Shown: positions 26,297 through 41,142 of the stretch, piece after piece
How positions within the stretch are numbered: position 1 is the first letter of the stretch
Layout of the letters: each line of letters begins with the position of its first letter
Assembly (NCBI RefSeq): GCF_025140835.1
Contig: NZ_CP081153.1
Span: 744,001 to 808,000, forward strand
Source of the DNA: Aliiroseovarius sp. M344
GTDB taxonomy: Bacteria > Pseudomonadota > Alphaproteobacteria > Rhodobacterales > Rhodobacteraceae
Direction of reading: 5' to 3'
DNA length: 64,000 nucleotides
Notes under the pieces: model-generated
What the model was told of the DNA's origin: nothing
Seen by the model: the letters and a program-made list of their open reading frames with translations, nothing else
The model's database searches: none
Made by a program: the position numbers and the translations under genes

Positions 26297-27214
26297 TCAG
26301 GCCTCTGGGTTGGCCAGATTGCGTCCCGACTTAGACGCAGATCGAACGATGTCCGCTATACGGTGGTACTGAGGGGCCAGCGGGCTTGTGTCGCGCCACA
26401 GCATGCCAATGGTCCGCGTCGGTTGCGGGTCACTGAAGCGGGCGAGGGACACGTTGGCCGAGCGCGTTTCGACGGGAATGGCCATCTCGGGGACCAATGT
26501 CACACCCAGTCCGGCCCCCACAAGCTGAACGAGTGTTGATAGCGAGCTGCCGTCGAGCGTTTCACGCGGTTGGTTTGGCTGAACGCTACAGAAAGACAGC
26601 GCTTGATCGCGAAAGCAGTGGCCTTCTTCAAGCAAAAGCAGGCGCAATTCCTGCAGCATCTCGCGGTTTGGCACCGGCTTGTTACGATCCGCCTTTTGCC
26701 GCACGAGGACGAAGTTTTCTTCAAACAACGCAACCTCGGTCAGTCCGGGTTCAGAGATCGGCAGCGCCAGAATGGCCGTGTCGATCCGACCTTCATTCAA
26801 CTCCTTGATAAGGTTGGAGGTCATGGTTTCCCGGACATGAATCTCAACGCCAGAGAAGCTCTGGGTAAGTTGCTCAACAATGGAGGGCAGAAGGTAGGGC
26901 GCAATGGTTGGAATCACGCCGATGCGAAGCTGCCCGACCCACTGGTCCTGCGCCGCGCGCACCAGATCACCCAACTCGTCGACCGCGCGCAGAATAGCCT
27001 GCGCCCGATTCAGAAACTCGCGCCCCAGTGTCGTCAGTCTGACTTGACGCGGCAAGCGTTCAAACAACGTGCTGCCGAGCGTTTCTTCAAGCTCTCGAAT
27101 CTGGACAGACAGCGCAGGTTGCGAGATGGAGCAGGCATCGGCTGCGCGGCCAAAATGACCGTGTCTGGCCAGTGCGTCGAAATAACGAAGCTGTCTGATC
27201 GTAATGTTTATCAT
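26297..27214 (-). CDS. oxyR: hydrogen-peroxide sensing LysR regulator OxyR
   Basis: A 305-residue LysR protein. The HTH lies at about residues 5-60 (LRYFDALARHGHFGRAADACSISQPALSVQIRELE). The redox loop reads EEGHCFRDQALSFC: the two Cys match the peroxide-sensing pair of E. coli OxyR (199/208) with the same spacing. It is divergent from katG across 114 bases, the classical arrangement, so oxidised OxyR most likely activates katG and may repress itself. Confidence 0.95.
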   Translation of the reverse strand: MINITIRQLRYFDALARHGHFGRAADACSISQPALSVQIRELEETLGSTLFERLPRQVRLTTLGREFLNRAQAILRAVDELGDLVRAAQDQWVGQLRIGVIPTIAPYLLPSIVEQLTQSFSGVEIHVRETMTSNLIKELNEGRIDTAILALPISEPGLTEVALFEENFVLVRQKADRNKPVPNREMLQELRLLLLEEGHCFRDQALSFCSVQPNQPRETLDGSSLSTLVQLVGAGLGVTLVPEMAIPVETRSANVSLARFSDPQPTRTIGMLWRDTSPLAPQYHRIADIVRSASKSGRNLANPEA

Positions 27215-29509
<2,295 letters not shown>

Positions 29510-29624: not shown

Positions 29625-30731
29625 CTAGATTTGACGCTCAACCGCGCTGGGCGACGTTGCCCCGATCTGAGCCATCGCATTGCTCATCTCCGAACTCAGA
29701 ACTTCCCACATTCTTTGCAGCCCGGGTTCACCGGCGGCGGCGATAGCGAATTGCAGGACGCGCCCGATGAAGGTGAAGTCGGCCCCTAAGCTCAGCGCTT
29801 TTAGTACATCTTCGCCAGATCGAATGCCGCTGTCATAGAAGAGCGGGAAATCGGGCCCAAGCTTGGCACGGATTTTCGCCAGCATTTCAATTGGCGCGGG
29901 CGCGCTTTCCAATTGCCGCGCGCCATGGCTGGATACCTGAATGGCATCCACGCCTGCGCTCACCAACTGTTGTGCATCGTCGACATCCAGCACGCCCTTG
30001 ACCACCAGTTTCCCCGGCCACGCGTCCCGTACACGAGACAGCGTTTCCCAAGTGACATTGGCCCGCGTTTCCGTGCGGTCGAATTCAAACCCGTCCATTT
30101 CGAAATTTGCCATCTGCGGCTTGCCACTGAACAGCGCGGGAAAGGACCACTGCGGGTGCAATGCGAAGTCGATGAATTGCCGTGGTCCGATGCGGAAGGG
30201 CATTGTGAACCCATGGCGAAGTTCGCGCGGTCGGCGGCCCACTTCGGGCACGTCGACGGTCAGAACAAGGGTCTTGTATCCTGCGGCCTTCGCCCGTTCC
30301 AGCAGCTTGAATGTGCCCACGCCGTCCCCGCTGAAGTAAAGTTGGAACCACGCATGGCCCTGGGCGGTTTCAATGATCTGTTCCAACGGCGTTGACGCAA
30401 CAGTGGACACGCCATGGGGCACGCGATGACGCCCTGCCAGTCGGGCCAGCATCAGGTCTGCGCCCGGACGGGACAAGTTGCACATACCCATGGGCGCGAT
30501 CCCGAAAGGGCGACCTGCCGAAGCACCGAAGATTTCGGTTGCCAGAGACCGCTGACTGACGTCTTTCAAGATACGCGGCCTGAGCGTGACCGCATCAAGG
30601 GCAGCCCGATTGCGCGCTGCCCCTGTTTCCCGACCGGCCGAGCCGTCGATATAGTCAAACACCATCCAAGGCAGCCTGCGCCGCGCCAATCGGCGGGCAT
30701 CGTCCGCACAATGGATGGCGCTTGCGCCCAT
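29625..30731 (-). CDS. FMN-dependent alpha-hydroxyacid dehydrogenase, candidate sulfolactate dehydrogenase
   Basis: A 368-residue TIM-barrel flavoenzyme of the LldD/glycolate oxidase family. FGIAPMGMCNLSRPG and WFQLYFSGD are FMN-binding strands; VVKGVLDVDDA has the conserved Lys; VSSHGARQLES keeps the catalytic His and substrate Arg but differs from the usual SNHGGRQLD; YDSGIRSGEDVLKAL and GADFTFIGR bind the FMN phosphate. Its ATG overlaps the stop of the ComE-like gene by one base. Being last in a sulfonate operon, between DHPS dehydrogenase and sulfopyruvate decarboxylase in pathway logic, it probably oxidises sulfolactate to sulfopyruvate; this substrate is inferred from context. Confidence 0.8.
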   Translation of the reverse strand: MGASAIHCADDARRLARRRLPWMVFDYIDGSAGRETGAARNRAALDAVTLRPRILKDVSQRSLATEIFGASAGRPFGIAPMGMCNLSRPGADLMLARLAGRHRVPHGVSTVASTPLEQIIETAQGHAWFQLYFSGDGVGTFKLLERAKAAGYKTLVLTVDVPEVGRRPRELRHGFTMPFRIGPRQFIDFALHPQWSFPALFSGKPQMANFEMDGFEFDRTETRANVTWETLSRVRDAWPGKLVVKGVLDVDDAQQLVSAGVDAIQVSSHGARQLESAPAPIEMLAKIRAKLGPDFPLFYDSGIRSGEDVLKALSLGADFTFIGRVLQFAIAAAGEPGLQRMWEVLSSEMSNAMAQIGATSPSAVERQI

Positions 30732-31285
30732 CAGCTTGCGACCGCTTTCATAAAGCGATCCCGGATGATGACCGGGTCCATCGTGATGACCGGCATCTTG
30801 GCGTTGCCACTGTCGCATTTGACCACCATGACGGTGGCTTTTCCGCCGTCGATGGCGTCTTGCAGCGCTTTGCCCGTGTCCACATCCTGAACCACAACGA
30901 CATTGTCGCAGCCAGCGGCGCGTGCCATGCCCGCCAGATCGGTTTTCTTGCCGGTATATGTCGGTTGATCCCCGGTCGAGCCATAGGACCCGTTGTCGAT
31001 GATCATCAGGATATAGTTGTTGGGCGCGTTGTTCCCAATCGTCGGCAATGTGCCGAGGTTGGTAAGAACCGAGCCGTCACCGTCGATTGCAATCACGGTT
31101 TTGGGCTGTGCCAAAGCAAGACCAAGACCGATCGAGGAGGCAAGCCCCATGGTCCCCAGCATGTAAAAGTTAGACGGTTGATCGTCGATGGCATGCAGTT
31201 CCTGACTGGGAATGCCGATGTTGCAGACGACCAGCTGGTCACGAAGGATGGGCGCGATCTCGCGCAGGATTTCAGAACGGATCAT
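30731..31285 (-). CDS. comE: sulfopyruvate decarboxylase, beta (ThDP-binding) subunit
   Basis: The ThDP-binding half of a two-subunit decarboxylase that turns sulfopyruvate into sulfoacetaldehyde and CO2. The 184-residue protein has the pyrophosphate/Mg motif AIDGDGSVLTNLG...NNAPNNYILMIIDNGSYGSTG, with GDG and the NN pair correctly spaced, and LGTMGLASSIGLGLALAQ before it. The ATG overlaps the alpha-subunit stop (ATGA), so the two are made together. Phosphonopyruvate decarboxylase is the main alternative; the surrounding DHPS genes favour sulfopyruvate. Confidence 0.85.
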   Translation of the reverse strand: MIRSEILREIAPILRDQLVVCNIGIPSQELHAIDDQPSNFYMLGTMGLASSIGLGLALAQPKTVIAIDGDGSVLTNLGTLPTIGNNAPNNYILMIIDNGSYGSTGDQPTYTGKKTDLAGMARAAGCDNVVVVQDVDTGKALQDAIDGGKATVMVVKCDSGNAKMPVITMDPVIIRDRFMKAVAS

Positions 31286-31788
31286 TGGTCGCCATAGCCT
31301 CCCCAGAAATTGGCGTCGGTCAGGATCGCCACAGGTTTGTTGCACATGAAAGTGTATTTCAGGATGTTGTCAAATTCCTCGACATCGCTTTGGCGATGGA
31401 AGTGGTAGGTTGGAATGTTCAACTGCGCCAGAAGCGCTTTGGTATGCACCGCCATTTCAACCTGACAGGCGACAGGCTCGCGCAGTTCGCCGCGATATGA
31501 AATCAGCATCGGCAAGGGCATCCGATAAAACTGCGTCAGCGTGGCCAGCGTGTTGATTGTCACGCCGATGGCTGTGTTTTGCATGATGATGGCGGGGCGC
31601 TTGCCGCCCATCCACGCGCCTGCACACAGCCCCATGCCCTCATCTTCCTTGTTGGAAGGGATGTGGAAAATTTCCTCGCGCCGGTCGACTTCTTCGATCA
31701 CGCCAGCCAGCTGCTTGCAGGGCACGGTGGTGATGAACGAGACGTCATTGGCGACTAGATCGTCCGCGATCTTCTTGTCGATGTTCAT
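31282..31788 (-). CDS. comD: sulfopyruvate decarboxylase, alpha subunit
   Basis: The 168-residue pyrimidine-binding subunit: DLVANDVSFITTVPCKQLAGVI at the start, IPSNKEDEGMGLCAGAWMGG with the conserved Glu that activates ThDP, and RMPLPMLISYRGELREPVA near the middle, as in ComD and the N-terminal half of phosphonopyruvate decarboxylase. It is coupled to comE by an ATGA overlap and lies 36 bases after the uspA-like gene in the same operon. Confidence 0.85.
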   Translation of the reverse strand: MNIDKKIADDLVANDVSFITTVPCKQLAGVIEEVDRREEIFHIPSNKEDEGMGLCAGAWMGGKRPAIIMQNTAIGVTINTLATLTQFYRMPLPMLISYRGELREPVACQVEMAVHTKALLAQLNIPTYHFHRQSDVEEFDNILKYTFMCNKPVAILTDANFWGGYGDQ

Positions 31789-31824
31789 GATCGTTTGGCC
31801 TTTATGGTTGATGTCATTTGTTAA

Positions 31825-32235
31825 CTAGGTGCTGCGATAGACGTGCACGGCGCACGGGGCATGGCGCACGACACGTGCCGCCGTTGTTCCCAGCAGATAG
31901 TCACTGAGCCCCGGTTTATGTGATCCGATCACAACGCACCCGATGCCATTTTCAGCAGAGAAGTCGATGATAGTACGATAGGTATGACCGGCCACGATTT
32001 CCGCCTGAATGCCCGGTATTCCTGCTGTCTTTTCCGCCAGCAACGCACGGGCGGCATCGAAACCTTCGCGTACAACTTCTTTGTCAAGATAAGCCCCTAC
32101 TGATCCGTGGGGGGTTTCGTAAACATGAAGGGCAATAATCTGCCCGCCGGGATTGCACAGCGCCTTTGCCACACCAAGGGTTGAAGCTGACAACCCGTGA
32201 TCAAGCGCCATCGGAACCAGAACTTTATCATACAT
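31825..32235 (-). CDS. universal stress protein (UspA family)
   Basis: A 136-residue single-domain Usp: YDKVLVPMALDHG at the start and the nucleotide-binding motif VIGSHKPGLSDYLLGTTAARVV near the end (G-x2-G-x9-G-S/T type). Usp proteins next to TRAP transporters, such as TeaD beside TeaABC, can modulate uptake; its position inside this transport and catabolic operon suggests a similar role. Confidence 0.88.
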   Translation of the reverse strand: MYDKVLVPMALDHGLSASTLGVAKALCNPGGQIIALHVYETPHGSVGAYLDKEVVREGFDAARALLAEKTAGIPGIQAEIVAGHTYRTIIDFSAENGIGCVVIGSHKPGLSDYLLGTTAARVVRHAPCAVHVYRST

Positions 32236-32262
32236 GGTTGACGTCCTTCCTTACGATGCAAA

Positions 32263-33243
32263 CTAGGACCATGGGTCCAGAACAATTTTAGGAGCGGCGA
32301 CAGTGCCAGCGCGAAGGTCTCGAAAAGCCTGCGCACCATCTGATAACGCACGCGTTTCGATCCAGTCCAGCGCGCCAAGCCGACCATCAAAGATCGCATG
32401 TGCGGTGTCGCGAAAATCCTGTGCGGTATAGGTGTATGTGCCGATAAAGGTGATTTCCTGAAGCGTCATGCGGCGGATATCCAGCCCGCCAGAGTTCTCG
32501 CCCAGTCCCACATGAGCAATCACGCCGCCCGGTGCCGCAATCTCGGATGCTATGGCCCGGGTTGCGGCATAGCCAACGGCATCAATCACGATGGTAGCTG
32601 GATGTGAGGCCTTGTCGGTAACCGATTGGTCGCACCGATCTGCCAGAAAGCGACGGCGTTTCTCGTTCGGTTCAACGATGGTTACGTCCTCAACCCCCAT
32701 CGCGCGCAAGGCCAGAGCGGCGGCCAGACCGATGGCTCCTCCACCCAGAACCAGCGCAGAGCGGTCCATTTTGTGATGCATTGCGTCAAGCGCAAGGCGG
32801 ACGGCATGCCAACTGACGGCCAGCGGTTCGGCAAGAGCGGCTTTGCCAAGGGGCACCTCGTCGGGAACCGTAACTAGATTGCTGTCAGGCATCGTGACAA
32901 ATTGTGCGAACGCACCTTCGCGCGGCGGCATCGAGATGATCTGTCGGTCGGCGCACAGATTTTCGCGCCCTATGCTGCAAGCCGCACAAGTACCGCAAGT
33001 CACAAGAGGATTGATTGTTACCCGCCGACCAACCTCAGAACCGCCCTCAATGACACCGGCCGCTTCGTGCCCGAGGATAAGCGGGGCAGGTCGACGATCG
33101 TCGTGGCCCAGATAAGCATGCATGTCAGACCCACATATGCCCGACGCCATGATGCGGATCAGGTGTTCGCCCTTCTTCGCTTCAGCCTTAGCGACATCGC
33201 GATATCCAAGCGTTTCAACACCGTCATAAACCAGAGCTTTCAT
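32263..33243 (-). CDS. zinc-dependent medium-chain dehydrogenase of the DHPS operon
   Basis: A 326-residue MDR-family alcohol dehydrogenase. The catalytic zinc site is SGICGSDMHAY with LGHEAAGVIEGG; the structural zinc loop is TCGTCAACSIGRENLC with four Cys; the Rossmann motif is LVLGGGAIGLAAALA. Its start overlaps the SDR gene stop (ATGA). In the known DHPS system of Cupriavidus two extra dehydrogenases (HpsO, HpsP) interconvert DHPS enantiomers through the 2-keto form; this gene and the next fit that pair, but I cannot say which is which. Confidence 0.85.
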   Translation of the reverse strand: MKALVYDGVETLGYRDVAKAEAKKGEHLIRIMASGICGSDMHAYLGHDDRRPAPLILGHEAAGVIEGGSEVGRRVTINPLVTCGTCAACSIGRENLCADRQIISMPPREGAFAQFVTMPDSNLVTVPDEVPLGKAALAEPLAVSWHAVRLALDAMHHKMDRSALVLGGGAIGLAAALALRAMGVEDVTIVEPNEKRRRFLADRCDQSVTDKASHPATIVIDAVGYAATRAIASEIAAPGGVIAHVGLGENSGGLDIRRMTLQEITFIGTYTYTAQDFRDTAHAIFDGRLGALDWIETRALSDGAQAFRDLRAGTVAAPKIVLDPWS

Positions 33244-34001
33244 TTCGCCGTGAACCCTCCGTCAACCATCAAAACTTGCCCAGTTACATAGGCAGACGCC
33301 TGCGAACACAAAAACAATAACGGCCCATCCATATCCTCAAGGTGCCCGTTGCGCCCGATGCAGGTTTGCGCAGCATTTCGGTCTGTAAGTGCCGCATCAT
33401 CGAAGACAGCTTGTGTCAGTTCGGTTGGGAAGAAGCCCGGACCAATAGCGTTTGCAGTGATGCCGAAAGGTGACCAGGCCTCGGCCATGGCGCGGGTCAA
33501 CTGCCCGACACCCGCCTTGCTGGCACCATAAGCGATGCCGCCCGGAAAGGCGCGGGTGGTTTGCAGTGAGGCGAAGTTTACGATGCGGCCCCAGCCTTTG
33601 TCTTTCATAGCCGGCACAAGGGCTTGGCTCAGGAAAAACGGGGTGCTGAGGTTCAGGGCCAGTGTCTGATCCCATCCTTCAGCCGTAACCTCATCCGCAG
33701 GTTGGCGTGTGTTCACTCCTGCTGCATGGATAAGGATGTCCGGCGATCCAAATGGCTCGCAGATTGCATCAGATAGAGCGCCAAGGTTTGCCCGATCGGC
33801 GACGTCCGCCGCGACATGTGCGGCATTCGCCCCGATTTCGGCAGAAAGGCTCTGCAACGGGTCCGCGCGGCGCGCCACGGACACGACCCGCGCCCCTGCC
33901 GACGACAATGCAATAGCTGCCCGCCGCCCGAGACCCGAACTGGCCCCGGTGATGCAAGCAACCTTGCCTGTCAGATCAAACAGGGATCGAGGATCAGCCA
34001 T
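33240..34001 (-). CDS. short-chain dehydrogenase/reductase of the DHPS operon
   Basis: A 253-residue SDR. The cofactor loop is ITGASSGLGRRAA, HAAGVNTRQ follows strand 4, and the catalytic Ser, Tyr and Lys lie in NFASLQTTRAFPGG and YGASKAGVG. VARRAD after strand 2 would accept NADP or NAD. It overlaps the HpsN gene by eight bases and the zinc dehydrogenase by four. It is the probable partner in racemising DHPS via a keto intermediate (HpsO/HpsP type), by context. Confidence 0.86.
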   Translation of the reverse strand: MADPRSLFDLTGKVACITGASSGLGRRAAIALSSAGARVVSVARRADPLQSLSAEIGANAAHVAADVADRANLGALSDAICEPFGSPDILIHAAGVNTRQPADEVTAEGWDQTLALNLSTPFFLSQALVPAMKDKGWGRIVNFASLQTTRAFPGGIAYGASKAGVGQLTRAMAEAWSPFGITANAIGPGFFPTELTQAVFDDAALTDRNAAQTCIGRNGHLEDMDGPLLFLCSQASAYVTGQVLMVDGGFTAK

Positions 34002-35301
34002 TTGCTGTCAGGTCAAAGATTTCATCGGGGAAATACTTCGCCAGACGCACGTCCGCCGCGCGGGCATGGCCTTCCATACCTTCCAGTCGCGAAATACGGG
34101 CCGTTGCTTCGGCCACAGCTTTCGACCCTTCGCGGGTGGCGCGCTGCCACGTCACGATCTTCATGTATTTGTGCACCGACAGGCCGCCGGTATAGCTTGC
34201 TGCGCGCGACGTCGGCAGCACGTGGTTGGTGCCGGTGGCCTTGTCGCCATAGGAGACGGTGGTTTCTTCGCCTAGGAACAGTGACCCGTAACATGTGAGG
34301 TTTTCCAGCCACCAGTCCAGATCTTCCGCCTGAACGGTCAGATGCTCGGGCGCATATTCGTCGGAACATGCCGCCATTTCCTCACGATCAGAACAGACCA
34401 TGACCTCGGCATAATCGCGCCACGCGGCAAAGGCGTTTTCGCGGTTCACGTCTGGCAAGTCTGCAATCAGTTTTGGTACGCGGGCCATAACGTCTTCGGC
34501 CAACGCGCGGTCGTCAGTGACCAGCCAGACCGGCGAGTTATACCCGTGCTCGGCTTGGCTGACCAAATCGGTGGCCACGATATGTGCATCGGCCGTCTTG
34601 TCGGCCAGGATCAGGCTGTCGGTTGGCCCCGCGATCATGTCGATCCCGACGCGACCAAACAGGATGCGTTTGGCTTCGGCCACAAACTGGTTGCCCGGAC
34701 CGACAAGGATGTTTGCCTTGGGCAGTCCAAACAGACCAAAGGTCATGGCCGCGACACCCTGCACACCGCCCATTGCCATGATTTTGTCCGCGCCGCAGAT
34801 ATGAGCGGCATAGACGATAGCGGGCGCGACGCCCACGTCAGGGCGGGGTGGGGAACAGGCGGTGATGTGTTTGCATCCGGCAACCTTGGCCGTGGTTACG
34901 GTCATGATCGCGCTGGCGATATGGCTATAACGCCCACCGGGCACATAACAACCCGCCGCATCAACAGGGATTGCCTTTTGGCCTGTCACGAAACCTGGTG
35001 TGATCTCGGTTTCCACATTGCTGACCGTGCTTTTTTGCAGTTCGGCAAAGCGGCGCACATTGTCGTGGGAAAACCGGATATCTGCTTTCAGTTTCTCCGG
35101 CACCAAAGCACAGGCAGCTTCGATCTCTGCCGGGCTCAGTAGAACACTGCCCTCATACTTGTCGAACTTGGCTGCGTATTCCATCGCCTTGGCATCACCA
35201 CCGGCTTCAATATCATTCAGGATACCTTTCACGATCTCATGGGTTTCGGATGCGTCTGACTTCGAAGTTAAAGAAGCCTTTTTCAGGTATTCACGAGTCA
35301 T
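33994..35301 (-). CDS. hpsN: sulfopropanediol 3-dehydrogenase (HisD-like)
   Basis: Four-electron NAD-dependent enzyme oxidising 2,3-dihydroxypropane-1-sulfonate to sulfolactate. The 435-residue protein has the histidinol dehydrogenase fold: PGGRYSHIASAIM, VGPGNQFVAEAKR, AGPTDSLILAD, SQAEHGYNSP with zinc ligands, and YAPEHLTV with the catalytic Glu-His. The N-terminus MTREYLKKASLTSKSDAS is typical of HpsN. It is not the biosynthetic HisD, because no his genes are near and it is embedded between a TRAP transporter and sulfopyruvate genes. It starts 12 bases after dctM. Confidence 0.9.
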   Translation of the reverse strand: MTREYLKKASLTSKSDASETHEIVKGILNDIEAGGDAKAMEYAAKFDKYEGSVLLSPAEIEAACALVPEKLKADIRFSHDNVRRFAELQKSTVSNVETEITPGFVTGQKAIPVDAAGCYVPGGRYSHIASAIMTVTTAKVAGCKHITACSPPRPDVGVAPAIVYAAHICGADKIMAMGGVQGVAAMTFGLFGLPKANILVGPGNQFVAEAKRILFGRVGIDMIAGPTDSLILADKTADAHIVATDLVSQAEHGYNSPVWLVTDDRALAEDVMARVPKLIADLPDVNRENAFAAWRDYAEVMVCSDREEMAACSDEYAPEHLTVQAEDLDWWLENLTCYGSLFLGEETTVSYGDKATGTNHVLPTSRAASYTGGLSVHKYMKIVTWQRATREGSKAVAEATARISRLEGMEGHARAADVRLAKYFPDEIFDLTANG

Positions 35302-35313
35302 AACTGTAAGGTC

Positions 35314-36642
35314 CTATTTATAGATATCTGGAAGAAAAGTGGTCGAGATTGCCGGGATATAGGCGATCAGAAGCACAACGATCAGCATGGTCAGAACGAA
35401 CGGTACGGCACGGGCTGCGATCTTAAGGATCGATTCCCCAGTGATGCCAGAGACGACGAACAGGTTCAGACCCAAAGGCGGTGTAATGAACCCTACGCCC
35501 AGAGCAGTGATCATCATGATACAGAACTGGATTTCGTTCATACCGATATTATCGGCGAGTGGCTTCAGGATCGGCGCGAGGATCACGATGTTTGGCGTGG
35601 TCTCCATCACACAACCCGCCGCGATCAGGATGCCGATCATCAGCAAGATCAGAACATAAGGATCGTCGGTCATACCTGTGACGGCGGTCACAAACCCTTG
35701 GGGCACACCCATAATGGCCAGCGCTTCAGCAAGCGGGGCAGAGAAGGCGATGATCGGCAGGATCACACCGTTTACCTTGGCAGAACTGACCAGCATCGCG
35801 GGGAAGTCTGAAAAGCTCAACGTACGCAGAAAGAAGCCCATGATGATGGTCACGACAACTGCCGTTGCACCTGCTTCGGTGGGGGTCAGACGCCCCGAGA
35901 AGATGCCGTAGAAAATAATGCCGGGCACGATGAAAGCATACCAGCCGGATTTCAGCGATTTGCCCAGATTGACGGACCATTCGCTGACGCTCATGTTGCC
36001 ACCGGTTTCGTAGCTGTAAAGCCGGTTCATGATGATGTTTGTCACCAGTATCGACACCAGAATGGCGATACCGGGAATGAGCGCGGCCAGAAACAGCGTC
36101 GAGGCAGATATTCCCAGCACAAGGCCGATAATGATATACGCGATCGACGGCGGGATCAGGATGCCAGTACACGCACCAGCCGCCACAAGCGCACAAGCAT
36201 AGGGGCGCGGATAGCCGCTTTCCACCAAACGCCCGATGGTCATCCGACCAACGGCAGCAGCACCCGCTGCGTCCGAGCCGGAAATCGCGGCAAACATACC
36301 ACAGACCAACACGGTGGCTGAACCAAACCCGCCTTTGGTCCAGCAGGTCAGCGCCTCGGCCACATCAAGGAACTTTCGACTAAGCCCGGTGCGCACCAGC
36401 ACGTCGCCGGTCAGGATGAAAAGGGGAACAGCGGTCAACGCAAAAGCGTCGATGCCGGTGAACAGGCTTTCGCCCACGGCGGACAGGGGCAGGTCGCCCG
36501 ACATGACCAACATGGTGATCGCGGCCGCACCAATGGCGGCCCAGACGGGCACGGCCAGTGCGATTAGACCCACGAACATCAGGACGGGAAGGTAAAAATC
36601 CCAGCCTAGCTCAACTGTTTGACCAACTTGTTGCCACAGCAT
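35314..36642 (-). CDS. TRAP transporter large permease (DctM type), probable DHPS uptake
   Basis: The main membrane subunit of a sodium-dependent TRAP transporter, with about 12 helices in 442 residues. Motifs include SGDLPLSAVGESLFTGIDAFALT early and SGSDAAGAAAVGRMTIG, PPSIAYIIIG and ITPPLGLNLFVVSGI later, all DctM-like. The ATG at 36642 is preceded by GAGGAG. It is probably HpsM-like (DHPS uptake), from its position directly before hpsN. Confidence 0.9.
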   Translation of the reverse strand: MLWQQVGQTVELGWDFYLPVLMFVGLIALAVPVWAAIGAAAITMLVMSGDLPLSAVGESLFTGIDAFALTAVPLFILTGDVLVRTGLSRKFLDVAEALTCWTKGGFGSATVLVCGMFAAISGSDAAGAAAVGRMTIGRLVESGYPRPYACALVAAGACTGILIPPSIAYIIIGLVLGISASTLFLAALIPGIAILVSILVTNIIMNRLYSYETGGNMSVSEWSVNLGKSLKSGWYAFIVPGIIFYGIFSGRLTPTEAGATAVVVTIIMGFFLRTLSFSDFPAMLVSSAKVNGVILPIIAFSAPLAEALAIMGVPQGFVTAVTGMTDDPYVLILLMIGILIAAGCVMETTPNIVILAPILKPLADNIGMNEIQFCIMMITALGVGFITPPLGLNLFVVSGITGESILKIAARAVPFVLTMLIVVLLIAYIPAISTTFLPDIYK

Positions 36643-36653
36643 TTGTGATCTCC

Positions 36654-37166
36654 TCAATCAAACAGTTTATCGCCTTCGAAGACGGGGGTGCCGTCACGAA
36701 GCGAGTGGAAATCGCGCCACAAGGATTGCAGCAAGCGCCAGACAATCAGGGCGAACCCAGCGGGCACGGCCATCAGGAACCAGACCATCGAGATGCGAAG
36801 CCCATGGCTGACCGAACCGAATTTGGCCGAGACGTGAACGGTCTCGTATGACCAATACAAGGCAATCACAGCGACAATGAGCATCACAAGATCGCCGAAG
36901 ATATAGATCAGCGCCTTAACGCGCGGCCCGACGTAATGCATCAGAACATCAATGCGGATATGCGCCCGCTCTTTCACCGCGGCGGCGGCACCGATCCAAG
37001 CCAGGTAAATGAAAGAATAGCGAACGATCTCTTCGCCCCAGATCGAGGAATAGGCAAAAAGTTCGCGCCGGATGACCTCGATCGCCATGGTGATAACAAG
37101 CATCACATAGAAGGTAAGCAGCAACCAGCGTTCCGCATTCTGATCTATCTGTCTGAGAAGTTTCAT
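36654..37166 (-). CDS. TRAP transporter small permease (DctQ type)
   Basis: A 170-residue membrane protein with four hydrophobic segments: WLLLTFYVMLVITMAIEV, SFIYLAWIGAAAAV, IFGDLVMLIVAVIALYW and ISMVWFLMAVPAGFALIV. IWGEEIVRYSFIYLAW is the usual DctQ signature. It pairs with the DctM subunit 11 bases downstream and is separated from the binding-protein gene by a terminator-like hairpin. Confidence 0.88.
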   Translation of the reverse strand: MKLLRQIDQNAERWLLLTFYVMLVITMAIEVIRRELFAYSSIWGEEIVRYSFIYLAWIGAAAAVKERAHIRIDVLMHYVGPRVKALIYIFGDLVMLIVAVIALYWSYETVHVSAKFGSVSHGLRISMVWFLMAVPAGFALIVWRLLQSLWRDFHSLRDGTPVFEGDKLFD

Positions 37167-37229
37167 AACGGGATCCTTCAGCCAAAGCTGTGACCATTAA
37201 AGGTGTCGCATCGCCATGCGCGGGGGTTC

Positions 37230-37261
37230 AAAAAAGTGGGTGCCCCGCGAAGGAGGCACCC
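37230..37261 (-). terminator. intra-operon terminator between TRAP binding protein and permease genes
   Basis: On the minus strand GGGTGCC and GGCACCC form a 7-bp stem with a 10-base loop, followed after two bases by a run of six U's (A's at 37230-37235). It lies nine bases after the binding-protein stop and ahead of dctQ, so partial termination should give more binding protein than permease. Confidence 0.75.
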
Positions 37262-37269
37262 CAGGAGAA

Positions 37270-38415
37270 CTAGGCGTCGTGCACGTAGTATTTGCCTTGA
37301 GTGCCCGCGGCCTCTTCCATCTTGGCAAAGTCGTCCATGGACCCGGCAAGCTCGACTTTGAACTCGTCCCACTCAGCGCGCTGGAAGCCGCCTGCTTCTT
37401 TCCATTCGCCAAGCTGATCTTCACTGAGTGAATGAAACTCGACGCCGGCTTTTGCAAGCTCGGCCATGGCGTAGCTGCGTGCCGACGGAACTTTCGACAG
37501 GTTCTGGTGCGCGGTCATTTCTGCCCCCCACATCACGCCTTCCTGCACGTCAGCAGGCAGCGAGTTGAACCACTCCAGATTACACGAATACACTTGGCTA
37601 TCTGGCACAGCCTGCGTGAAGGTCACGTGGCTGAGGATATCCTTGAACCCGAAGACGTAAAGCGCGCCGACCGATGGGTCCAAAGCGTCTGCGACGCCTT
37701 GTTTGATGGCCGACGGTGTTTCACCCCATGCCACCGGCGTTGGGTTTGCACCCACCATGCGGTAATACTGCTGCAGCATTTTCGAACCCGGCACGCGGAA
37801 CTTCACGCCTGCCATATCGCTCGGGGTCATAACCGCATTGCCGCCCTTGCGCACCGCAACGACGCGCGGGTCGATGTTTACATAGAACAGGGCTTTGAAG
37901 CCGTTTTCTTCAACTTTGGGCTCAACCGCTGTTTTCCAGAAATCTGAATTCACCAGATTGGTGAAGCGTTGGTTCGAACCGCAAAGGTAGGGCATGTTGA
38001 TCAGGTCAACAGTCGATGCAAACGGCGCAAAGTTCGACAGCGAATGCTGTGCCGCTTGAATGGTGCCGCCTTGAACTTTTTGGACCAATGCACCACCTGC
38101 GCCAAGCTGTCCGCCCGGTGCCAGTTTTACATATACTTTGCCGTTGGTCGCGTTCTGAATGTTCTCTTTCAGGTCCAGCTGCATGATCGGATAGCTGCGG
38201 GACGCGCCCAGCACATAGGCTGTCGCCACGGTCATCACATGTTCTGCGGCTGCCTCACGCTCTTGCTCTTCTTTGGCGGTTTGCGCGACCGCTTCGGTTG
38301 ACCAAAGCATCCCGCCAGCGCCGACCACCATTGCGGCCGTGAAGCCGCCGCTCGCGCTGAGCTTCAGAAAGTTACGTCGTTCAGCTGACTTCAGCCCGTC
38401 TTTTACTTTTCTCAT
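37270..38415 (-). CDS. TRAP transporter substrate-binding protein (DctP type), Tat-exported
   Basis: A periplasmic binding protein of about 381 residues. The start at 38415 has GGGAGGA six bases ahead. The leader contains ERRNFLKLSASGG, a twin-arginine signal, so the protein is exported folded. The body has GGQLGAGGALVQKVQGGTIQ, KFRVPGSKMLQQYYRMVGANPTPVAW and ADALDPSVGALYVFGF; the conserved Arg in FRVPGS would bind an anionic group such as a sulfonate. It is separated from the permease genes by a terminator hairpin. Confidence 0.9.
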   Translation of the reverse strand: MRKVKDGLKSAERRNFLKLSASGGFTAAMVVGAGGMLWSTEAVAQTAKEEQEREAAAEHVMTVATAYVLGASRSYPIMQLDLKENIQNATNGKVYVKLAPGGQLGAGGALVQKVQGGTIQAAQHSLSNFAPFASTVDLINMPYLCGSNQRFTNLVNSDFWKTAVEPKVEENGFKALFYVNIDPRVVAVRKGGNAVMTPSDMAGVKFRVPGSKMLQQYYRMVGANPTPVAWGETPSAIKQGVADALDPSVGALYVFGFKDILSHVTFTQAVPDSQVYSCNLEWFNSLPADVQEGVMWGAEMTAHQNLSKVPSARSYAMAELAKAGVEFHSLSEDQLGEWKEAGGFQRAEWDEFKVELAGSMDDFAKMEEAAGTQGKYYVHDA

Positions 38416-38435
38416 GTTATCCTCCCTAGGATTCA

Positions 38436-38624
38436 TCAGCTGCCTTGGTTCTTTGATTTTTGGTCAGCTTCTTTTTTAAGAATTGCGACGACAAACAGGA
38501 TCGAGGCCGCAAACAGAACCAGCATTTCCCCAATGTCGCCAAGAAAAGCGCTGCCGGCGAAGGCCCCGAGGGCAACATTCGCGAAGAAAACAGCAAAGAC
38601 GACGACAGAGGCTACAAGAAACAT
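38436..38624 (-). CDS. small two-helix membrane protein heading the sulfonate operon
   Basis: A 62-residue protein from the ATG at 38624 (CGGAGCG ahead); a longer frame starts upstream but would run into the operators. Two hydrophobic segments (FLVASVVVFAVFFANVALGAF and MLVLFAASILFVVAILKK) end in a charged tail (EADQKSKNQGS). I do not recognise it. It is the first gene after the LacI-type operators, so it should be coexpressed with the TRAP transporter. Confidence 0.6.
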   Translation of the reverse strand: MFLVASVVVFAVFFANVALGAFAGSAFLGDIGEMLVLFAASILFVVAILKKEADQKSKNQGS

Positions 38625-38658
38625 TTTTCGCTCCGTAGTGAATCGGTTCACCCTCATT

Positions 38659-38672
38659 TGTAAGCGCTTACA
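38659..38672. promoter_or_regulatory. LacI-type operator 1
   Basis: TGTAAGCGCTTACA is a perfect 14-bp palindrome with the central CG pair usual for LacI-family sites. It sits between the divergent LacI gene and the sulfonate operon. Confidence 0.82.
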
Positions 38673-38679
38673 TTTTAAA

Positions 38680-38693
38680 TGCAAGCGTTTACA
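38680..38693. promoter_or_regulatory. LacI-type operator 2
   Basis: TGCAAGCGTTTACA matches operator 1 at most positions, with two breaks of symmetry. Its centre is 21 bp from that of operator 1, two helical turns, so two dimers would bind the same face of the DNA. Confidence 0.75.
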
Positions 38694-38757
38694 TTACCCG
38701 GATGGCAAGTGCCTGCCGATGTGTTAAGAAGAGCTGAAACAATGGGCAGATGTGGTG

Positions 38758-39798
38758 ATGGGAAAAACTCGTTCAGTACCGACACTTAACGATGTGGCAG
38801 CTATGGCTGGCGTGTCGACTGCCACGGTGTCGCGCTGCCTGAATTCCCCTGACCAAGTGGTGGAGCGAACGCGCATTCGCGTCATGGCCGCGGTAGAATC
38901 CCTGGGCTACACACCCAATTTCGCCGCGCGTGTGATGGCCGCAAAGCGGTCATTTACAATCGGTGCGATCATTCCAACCATGGACAACGCGATCTTTGCG
39001 CGTGGTCTGCAAGCCTTTCAGGACGAACTGCGCCAAAACGGCTATACGCTTCTTGTGTCCAGCTCGGCCTACAAACCAGAAATTGAGAAAGAACAAATCC
39101 GCGCCTTGGTGGCGCGGGGTGCAGATGGTTTGTTGTTGATTGGCCATGAACGCGAAGACCAGATCTATGAATACCTCGAGCGGCATCAGGTTCCGGCTCT
39201 GGTCGCCTGGTCTTACCTGTCCGATGCCCGGCAGCCCTCTGTGGGGTTCAGCAACCGGAACGCCATGTTCGACCTGACGCAAAATGTCATCGATGCAGGG
39301 CACAAACGGATCGCGATGATCTCGGGAATGACTGTGGGAAATGATCGTGCGCAAAGACGTGTAAAAGGTGTTCGCGATGCGCTGCTCGCCAATGGTATCG
39401 AACCAGACGGTATGAGGTTGATTGAAACCAACTATGGCATTGATAGTGGCGCGTATGCGTTTCGCGAACTCATGTCCCACACGCCGAGGCCGACAGCAGT
39501 TTTGTGTGGTAATGACGTTTTGGCCGTGGGCGCGCTGCGCGAAGCGCGACTTATGGGGCTTTCGGTTCCAGATCAGATTTCGATCACCGGTTTTGACGAT
39601 ATTGAGCTGGCAGAGATTGCCAGCCCTGGATTGACGACAGTTCATGTGCCCCACCGCGAAATGGGGCGCAGAGCTGCGCAAGAACTGATTGCGATGGTGG
39701 AGGGTCGGTCAAAAGGGGCTTCGACCTGCATCAATACACATGTTGTTTCGCGCCAATCGCTGGCAAAACCCCCAAAGGATGACAGCCCAGAGACGTAG
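38758..39798 (+). CDS. LacI-family transcriptional regulator of the sulfonate operon
   Basis: A 346-residue regulator. The HTH and hinge are PTLNDVAAMAGVSTATVSRCLNSPDQVVERTR (residues about 7-40) with YTPNFAARVMAAKRS; the periplasmic-binding-protein-like core follows with TIGAIIPTMDNAIFARGLQ and ITGFDDIELAEIASPGLTTV. ATG at 38758 is chosen over GTG codons at 38752 and 38755, with GGGCAG ahead. It is divergent from the operon with two LacI operators between, so repression relieved by DHPS or an intermediate is likely. Confidence 0.88.
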   Translation: MGKTRSVPTLNDVAAMAGVSTATVSRCLNSPDQVVERTRIRVMAAVESLGYTPNFAARVMAAKRSFTIGAIIPTMDNAIFARGLQAFQDELRQNGYTLLVSSSAYKPEIEKEQIRALVARGADGLLLIGHEREDQIYEYLERHQVPALVAWSYLSDARQPSVGFSNRNAMFDLTQNVIDAGHKRIAMISGMTVGNDRAQRRVKGVRDALLANGIEPDGMRLIETNYGIDSGAYAFRELMSHTPRPTAVLCGNDVLAVGALREARLMGLSVPDQISITGFDDIELAEIASPGLTTVHVPHREMGRRAAQELIAMVEGRSKGASTCINTHVVSRQSLAKPPKDDSPET

Positions 39799-39882
39799 CC
39801 ATACCGGTCCAGCGCTTTGACGGCACGCTGTCCGCAACCTGGCCGCTTGCGAGCGGCTCTTAAGCAGAGCTATGGTCGCCCA

Positions 39883-41142
39883 ATGATAGACATTGCAGAC
39901 CGAGCCTTCCTGACAGACCTCTTCGACACGGCCATCTTGGCCGCTGATGCGCGGGCGGTCCTGAAAGACAACCTGCCTGACAAACCCAAGGGCCGGACCG
40001 TTGTGGTTGGAGCAGGCAAAGGGGCCGCGCAACTGGCAGCGGCGTTCGAAGAGGTGTGGGGCGACCACGTCGAAGGGGTTGTGGTTACTCGATATGGTTA
40101 TGGCGCGACCTGCAAACACATACGCATTTTAGAAGCCGCCCACCCGGTGCCGGATGCGGCGGGGCTGGAAGCCTCTCGCGCTCTGACCGAAGCGGTCGCC
40201 GGGCTCAGCGAAGATGATCTGGTCGTTGCATTGATCACCGGAGGCGGGTCAGCATTGTTGCCTGCCCCGCCCGATGGATTGACTCTGGCGGACGAGCAGA
40301 AGTTGAACGAAGCGCTTCTGGCGTCCGGGGCGCCGATATCGGTGATGAATGCGATCCGCAAGCACGCGTCAACGATAAAGGGCGGGCGTTTGGCGGTGGC
40401 GGCCCATCCCGCAAAAGTCATCACGTTGATTGTATCGGATGTGCCCGGCGACGCGCCGTCACAAGTCGCGTCGGGTCCGACCGTGCCGGATGATGCGGAT
40501 CAGGAGCACGCACTGTCCGCGATAGCCGCTTGGAAAATAAACCTGCCCGCGAACATTCTTGAGCACATCCGCGCATATCCAGCTCCATCGCCGACGGATC
40601 CAGTATTCGCGGGCAACCAGGTTGAGGTGATCGCCTCAGCGCGGCTTAGCCTTGAAGCGGCTGCCGCGCGGTCCGAAGCGCAGGGCGTACCGGCGATCAT
40701 TCTGTCTGACGCAATTGAAGGCGAGGCGCGCGATGTGGCCCGGATGCATGGGGCAATAACGCGAGAGGTTCTGACGCGGGACCGACCGTTCCGCGCTCCC
40801 TGTCTCCTGTTGTCTGGCGGCGAGACCACAGTCACGCTTAAGGGCGGGGGGCGCGGCGGGCGGAATACGGAGTTCCTGTTGTCGCTGGCCTTCACGTGCG
40901 ACGGCTTATCAGGGTTTACGGCGATGGCAGCTGATACGGATGGAATTGACGGATCGGAAGACAACGCCGGTGCTTTTGTTGATGGCCAGTCCGCGCACAG
41001 GCTGCGGATGCTCGGTCGTGATCCAATGGCGCTTTTATCGAACAATGACGCATGGGTTGCTTTCGATGCGCTGGGTGATCTGTTTTCACCGGGCCCGACA
41101 GGGACCAATGTGAATGACTTTAGGGCCATCTTGATCAGATAG
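39883..41142 (+). CDS. glycerate 2-kinase (DUF4147/MOFRL family)
   Basis: Phosphorylates D-glycerate to 2-phosphoglycerate in the cytosol. The 419-residue protein has an N-terminal DUF4147 part ([46 protein letters not shown]) and a C-terminal MOFRL domain ([41 protein letters not shown]). The ATG at 39883 is a conserved-looking start; a longer upstream frame is probably not used. It follows the LacI gene by 84 bases on the same strand; whether it belongs to sulfonate metabolism is unclear. Confidence 0.88.

Follow-up and report, generated by a model that had tools for sequence, protein, structure and literature searches.

Analysis of a 64,000-nucleotide stretch of the genome of Aliiroseovarius sp. 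M344 (3.39 Mb in two contigs), hereafter the window (C1:744001-808000), revealed an operon that very probably encodes the uptake and oxidation of 2,3-dihydroxypropane-1-sulfonate (DHPS) and would belong to the known roseobacter Xsc-pathway type. Algae produce this sulfur compound, through which sulfur and carbon reach bacteria. The operon is headed by a small gene whose membrane protein, judged with rather less confidence from gene linkage, probably serves the HpsKLM tripartite ATP-independent periplasmic (TRAP) transporter in some role. The preliminary description of this stretch had reported ten tightly spaced, partly overlapping minus-strand genes behind a small membrane gene and under a LacI regulator, and this layout was confirmed by the coordinates and by the Pfam and NCBIfam families: ten packed genes occupy 29625-38415 on the minus strand, with the small membrane gene ahead of them and then a divergent lacI gene on the plus strand.

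38752-39798, plus strand: hpsR, lacI-family regulator (Pfam LacI and Peripla_BP_3); Ruegeria pomeroyi DSS-3 SPO0590 is annotated hpsR in the available text of PMC4334477
38436-38624, minus strand: 62-residue two-helix membrane protein at the operon head, without a known family
37270-38415, minus strand: hpsK, predicted DHPS TRAP binding protein (DctP; 661 bits to PDB 24gc); the open reading frame (ORF) may start at 38436
36654-37166, minus strand: hpsL, predicted TRAP small permease (DctQ; PF04290)
35314-36657, minus strand: hpsM, predicted TRAP large permease (DctM; PF06808, with TIGR00786 above cut-off)
33994-35301, minus strand: hpsN, predicted R-DHPS 3-dehydrogenase of HisD fold (775 bits to PDB 8wwe; residues present)
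33240-34001, minus strand: hpsO, predicted R-DHPS dehydrogenase of the short-chain dehydrogenase/reductase (SDR) family (394 bits to PDB 8wwf; residues present)
32263-33243, minus strand: hpsP, predicted S-DHPS dehydrogenase, a zinc medium-chain dehydrogenase/reductase or zinc alcohol dehydrogenase (460 bits to PDB 8wwd; residues present)
31825-32235, minus strand: hpsQ, UspF/G-like universal stress protein (PF00582; NCBIfam matches only to UspF and UspG, both below cut-off)
31282-31788, minus strand: comD, predicted sulfopyruvate decarboxylase alpha (TIGR03845, 147.9 bits against a cut-off of 147.95)
30731-31345, minus strand: comE, predicted sulfopyruvate decarboxylase beta, start uncertain (TIGR03846, 242 bits, above the cut-off of 221.5)
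29625-30731, minus strand: slcD, predicted sulfolactate dehydrogenase dependent on flavin mononucleotide (PF01070); DSS-3 slcD (SPO0598) holds the same position apart from comDE

Gene starts were taken at ATG 38415 for hpsK (mechanical start 38436) and ATG 30731 for slcD (mechanical start 30818). At the transporter end, the gaps measured 20 nucleotides between the small gene and hpsK, 103 between hpsK and hpsL, -4 between hpsL and hpsM, and 12 between hpsM and hpsN; at the enzyme end, they were -8 (hpsN-hpsO), -4 (hpsO-hpsP), 27 (hpsP to the uspA gene hpsQ), 36 (uspA-comD), -64 (comD-comE), and -1 (comE-slcD). In Pfam terms, ComD and ComE correspond to the N and C halves of TPP_enzyme, the N half scoring slightly below cut-off. 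An Rfam scan of the window returned one tRNA and no other family. The arrangement is not due to chance, since 36 of the 80 best HpsN loci (chosen from 567 confirmed loci of other genomes, some ending at contig edges) carried all 12 genes inside the fetched stretch, and a divergent lacI gene adjoined the operon in 71 of the 80.

Comparison with solved structures supported the assignment of the enzymes. HpsN aligned with 8wwe without a gap over 407 residues and possesses, at the published numbers, His320, Asp353, His360, and the Arg124-Tyr125-Ser126 triple, in keeping with its earlier description as an HpsN-like HisD homologue. HpsP was closest to the solved HpsP by a wide interval (next chain, 97 bits) and carries His59, Glu60, and Glu139 at the same numbers, while Ser145, Gln147, Tyr158, and Lys162 are all present in HpsO. 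The solved chains represent RpHpsO (8WWF), DsHpsP (8WWD), and RpHpsN (8WWE), as given in PMC11131964, and all three proteins of the window retain the residues that Liu et al. 2024 tested. Because of these matches to solved DHPS proteins and the retention of the tested residues, a predicted chain from R-DHPS to sulfoacetaldehyde appears well founded, which upholds the proposal of the preliminary description that the operon takes DHPS to sulfoacetaldehyde.

In the proposed mechanism, HpsK would capture DHPS and HpsLM would import it, as others have shown in R. pomeroyi and as similarity suggests here. HpsN would then carry out two oxidations of R-DHPS to give sulfolactate, SlcD would convert sulfolactate to sulfopyruvate, and ComDE would convert sulfopyruvate to sulfoacetaldehyde, from which Xsc and Pta encoded elsewhere in the genome would release sulfite and acetyl-CoA. 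HpsO, acting on R-DHPS, and HpsP, acting on S-DHPS, would yield sulfolactaldehyde, which an unlinked aldehyde dehydrogenase would have to finish. According to the available text of PMC11131964, HpsO and HpsP oxidize R- and S-DHPS, respectively, to sulfolactaldehyde, from which GabD-2 makes sulfolactate, and HpsN converts R-DHPS to sulfolactate; PMC11382572 describes the subsequent Xsc route, which leads by way of SlcD, ComDE, and Xsc, and names Ruegeria sp. ANG-S4 as one example. The earlier designation of the operon as complete is therefore overstated, since the product of HpsO and HpsP needs a further dehydrogenase encoded elsewhere and xsc, required for desulfonation, is unlinked; the operon alone is incomplete for S-DHPS.

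A genome search for xsc, suggested at the outset, located an intact copy with pta at C1:1210644, alongside a GntR/aminotransferase-type regulator. The genome thus combines an intact xsc with an operon containing comDE and slcD, as expected of the Xsc type. The companion search for a sulfite exporter returned six TauE-family genes, none of which was singled out. A second xsc copy (within C1:283010-287853) covers only model positions 195-575 and is adjoined by transposase (integrase core) and IstB genes. The YeiH-like gene (PF03601) beside it is likewise fragmented, its matches consisting of two partial pieces, and a third PF03601 match was marginal. We take PF04295 to be the SuyB-type family. 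No PF04295 protein was matched in the genome, which argues against the SuyAB exit; CuyA, the other exit, was not searched for.

This gap for CuyA is one of several points that weigh against the assignment of the operon. The top solved match of HpsO was 6le3, labelled gluconate 5-dehydrogenase (407 bits), which outscored the solved HpsO by 14 bits and left it second. In addition, comD falls 0.05 bits short of its NCBIfam cut-off, and SlcD lacks a solved relative from a DHPS pathway, the nearest solved proteins being lactate oxidase and mandelate dehydrogenase. For the sulfolactaldehyde dehydrogenase, there are two candidates resembling succinate semialdehyde dehydrogenase, both nearest to the E. 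coli type.

The gene order further placed the operon among described systems. In R. pomeroyi DSS-3, the operon hpsR-hpsKLMNOPQ-slcD (SPO0590-0598; PMC4334477) shows the same order of regulator family, TRAP genes, HpsN, HpsO, HpsP, HpsQ, and SlcD. The window operon differs in having comDE between hpsQ and slcD, and PMC11382572 assigns DSS-3, together with Roseovarius nubinhibens, to the CuyA route. Moreover, the gene list available from PMC4334477 names nothing between hpsR and hpsK, where the window has the small gene. Xsc-pathway clusters with hpsNOP, slcD, and comDE are reported for Ruegeria sp. ANG-S4 and Jannaschia sp. CCS1 and follow the same sulfopyruvate/sulfoacetaldehyde route; no difference in enzyme content from the clusters as given in PMC11382572 was found, with xsc unlinked in the genome of the window. 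The locus of Ruegeria sp. ANG-S4 (L081) carries all 12 genes in the same arrangement. The hpsRNOUPsuyAB cluster of Cupriavidus pinatubonensis JMP134 shares HpsN, HpsO, HpsP, and HpsR, and has the major facilitator superfamily importer HpsU and SuyAB, whereas the window has a TRAP importer and SlcD-ComDE (PMC11382572). Because the DSS-3 gene order, apart from comDE, and the published slcD-comDE-Xsc variant both match, the window operon is, on sequence comparison with the available text of PMC4334477 and PMC11382572, the comDE-containing variant of a published operon type. As for hpsQ, a Usp gene lies close to TRAP genes here, with dehydrogenase genes separating it from hpsKLM. The ectoine TRAP transporter TeaABC has a Usp regulator, TeaD, and its Usp gene is likewise close to the TRAP genes.

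Two operator-like palindromes were identified between lacI and the operon.

38680-38693: operator-like palindrome 1, TGCAAGCGTTTACA
38659-38672: operator-like palindrome 2, TGTAAGCGCTTACA, perfect

Both are CG-centred and they lie 21 bp apart. With at most one mismatch, the pattern TGTAARCGNTTACA matched these two palindromes and no other place in the genome, as compared with nine places for the reversed control pattern. Of 71 lacI-operon regions in related loci, 50 contained a pair of CG-centred palindromes with a spacing of 21-23 bp, 17 contained a single palindrome, and four contained none; at least one palindrome was thus present in 67 of 71 regions against 58 of 1420 shuffled regions. The two palindromes are likely to form the HpsR operator, a prediction from sequence, and because the pair is unique in the genome and conserved in relatives, the control exerted by HpsR is probably confined to this operon. 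Sitting on the two adjacent palindromes, HpsR would block the divergent operon in the absence of DHPS.

The small gene at the operon head was found to follow the transporter closely. It was present in all 58 of the 80 HpsN loci having an hpsK of >60% identity and was found in none of the 22 loci without hpsK, even by a hidden Markov model search; 21 of these 22 are informative, since the sequence of the remaining one (L014) begins inside hpsM. In an order-wide sample of 390 genomes (thresholds of E 0.001 for the small gene and E 1e-100 for hpsK), 101 genomes had the small gene, 102 had hpsK, and 100 had both, and in every one of these 100 the small-gene match shared its strand with the hpsK match and lay 27-80 nucleotides upstream of it. 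One stop codon was found inside four of the 101 small-gene matches. In a control by ORF list and eye, a same-strand two-segment small ORF was found directly upstream in none of the 11 other DctP loci of the M344 genome. Within the genus, one genome (G393) has the whole operon including the small gene, and in two others (G392 and G399) hpsNOPQ-comDE-slcD is accompanied by a distant hpsM relative (36-37%) close to hpsN, while neither the small gene nor hpsK was found within the fetched 18 kb. Since the small gene occurs with hpsK and was not found in HpsN loci devoid of it, it tracks the transporter rather than the enzymes. A further locus (L150, genome G167) has lacI, the small membrane gene, hpsKLM, and uspA, and no close hpsN, hpsO, or hpsP within its fetched 16 kb.

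Exceptions to the pairing were few. One genome (G130, locus L136) has lacI followed by a degenerate small gene and no hpsK or other hps gene in 16 kb, apparently the leftover of a lost operon. In another (G134), a divergent small gene (19.3 bits) occupies the corresponding position. A third (G170) has an HpsK relative of 59% only, and a second copy in G090 is 61% identical; in both, an ORF of 74 or 95 residues with two hydrophobic stretches (by eye) lies just upstream of the binding protein, its common descent with the small gene not being shown because it scores only 7.1 and 10.1 bits. Two TRAP loci (L153:900-11000 and L154:1300-11500), with 59-61% HpsK identity and a small hydrophobic ORF ahead of the binding protein, also contain, by eye, 2-oxoacid dehydrogenase E1 and E2, VOC, hydroxyisobutyrate-dehydrogenase-like, and SDR genes, and this cluster may possibly represent an undescribed sulfonate pathway.

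At the sequence level, the small gene extends over 38436-38684 from a mechanical TTG start and over 38436-38624 from the ATG favoured by its relatives. In 29 aligned copies, with non-ATG starts read as M, the residues M1, F10, N16, G20, D30, E33, M34, F44, V45, I48, and E52 are invariant. Third codon positions vary most, and the median ratio of nonsynonymous to synonymous divergence (dN/dS) was 0.13 for the 118 usable of 150 random pairs, at a dS near saturation (median 1.44). The gene therefore looks like a real coding sequence whose protein is under purifying selection. AlphaFold2 predicted two helices for the 62 residues (mean predicted local distance difference test score 83, predicted template modelling score 0.47), and a PDB fold search with this model gave no match. 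No Pfam family and no credible NCBIfam family was found for the protein, nor did a scan of viral contigs return a relative; it has 505 homologues, and of the 120 that were listed most are nameless, and the names given are nearly all hypothetical or uncharacterized, apart from one DUF1328 and one uncharacterized membrane protein. By eye, the hairpin and a Gly-Asp...Glu motif recall the N-terminus of DctQ; this origin as half a DctQ was rejected, as hhalign gave it no support with an HpsL alignment that is narrow.

Two readings of this protein were weighed. Its retention by chance at the operon start, as a leader or passenger without any role in transport, would account for the small gene being first after the operator in the inspected loci, and small leader genes do exist. 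This explanation is nevertheless rather unlikely in view of the signs of purifying selection and of the 14 loci in which lacI directly adjoins hpsN without hpsKLM, all of which retain at least one palindrome and in none of which the small gene was found. A similar-looking small ORF before the binding protein in the divergent TRAP relatives, at a score of only 7-10 bits, points in the same direction. Instead, judged by its linkage to hpsK, the protein would most likely serve HpsKLM as a dedicated helper or as a fourth subunit. A more specific version, in which it is a dedicated fourth DHPS TRAP component required for the assembly, stability, or gating of HpsLM and a wider TRAP clade, including the divergent paralogs beside other enzymes, would be four-part instead of tripartite, is offered tentatively and is somewhat less likely than not. 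Speaking against a transporter role, no profile similarity of the small protein to HpsL, HpsM, HpsK, or UspA was found; for the HpsL and HpsM alignments (both narrow), hhalign returned probabilities of 0.1-0.2 percent, and the protein was not placed with DctQ- or DctM-like proteins. The DHPS transporter is treated as three genes in the available text of PMC4334477, PMC10130141, and PMC9038784, and no fourth TRAP component was found in the literature searched, including the accessible parts of PMC5812351 and PMC11574862, most subscription papers lying outside that search.

With regard to the substrate, HpsKLM, rather than the alternative DHPS importer HpsU, was recognized from its Pfam families and the HpsK match, and HpsK carries a twin-arginine-type signal (RRNFLK, by eye). 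The transporter could instead take up another C2-C3 sulfonate such as sulfolactate or isethionate, the DHPS enzymes being secondary, given that small changes can shift specificity in TRAP families and that TRAPs with 59-61% HpsK identity adjoin quite different enzymes. We regard this as very improbable, because HpsK scores 661 bits against 24gc, known here by its label 'Dihydroxypropanesulfonate (DHPS) TRAP transporter' alone, and 75 bits against the next chain, and because the SPO0591 (hpsK) mutant of DSS-3 serves as the positive control for a confirmed DHPS transporter in the available text of PMC10130141. Least credible of all is a histidinol dehydrogenase in an operon for histidine or polyol metabolism: although PF00815 and TIGR00069 score far over cut-off, among the matches listed the solved R-DHPS dehydrogenases reach 775 and 504-509 bits against 256 for the best histidinol dehydrogenase, the DHPS-type RYS triple is present, and HpsN is neither closest to HisD nor the sole HisD-family protein of the genome, where two further genes occur and that at C1:2379280 scores highest for the family. 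The third HisD-family gene (C1:866024-867298) is 46% identical to the window HpsN, and eight further genomes of the genus hold counterparts of 46-48%.

Beyond the operon, a MOFRL glycerate-kinase-type gene (39817-41142) shares the strand of lacI and lies 18 nucleotides downstream of it; it was considered as an operon partner and rejected, as none of the 80 HpsN loci, some of them cut short by contig edges, yielded it at E 1e-20. Beside the slcD end, 26297-29509 holds a 726-residue peroxidase gene (Pfam peroxidase), presumably a catalase-peroxidase by its size, and a divergent LysR-family gene; at the same threshold, the peroxidase gene, too, was not found in those 80 loci. Within the genus the operon is accessory: whole HpsN at ≥82% identity was present in 4 of 21 genomes, including M344, and in pieces in a fifth. 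A recent island was not supported by base composition (G+C 0.569 in the operon, 0.566 in the rest of the window). In five sister genomes, fetched out of 16 others that carry the peroxidase gene, the tested right-flank genes were not found within 12-13 kb beyond the peroxidase, so that no clean empty site came to light.

With this operon, M344 becomes a further probable user of DHPS by the Xsc route. To the pathway, which was already known, the operon adds nothing new, and the small transporter-linked membrane protein is its least explained part. This protein is a candidate, accessible to experiment, for a component that has been overlooked in a model ocean transporter, and if HpsKLM does need it, uptake assays and structures restricted to K, L, and M would lack one part.

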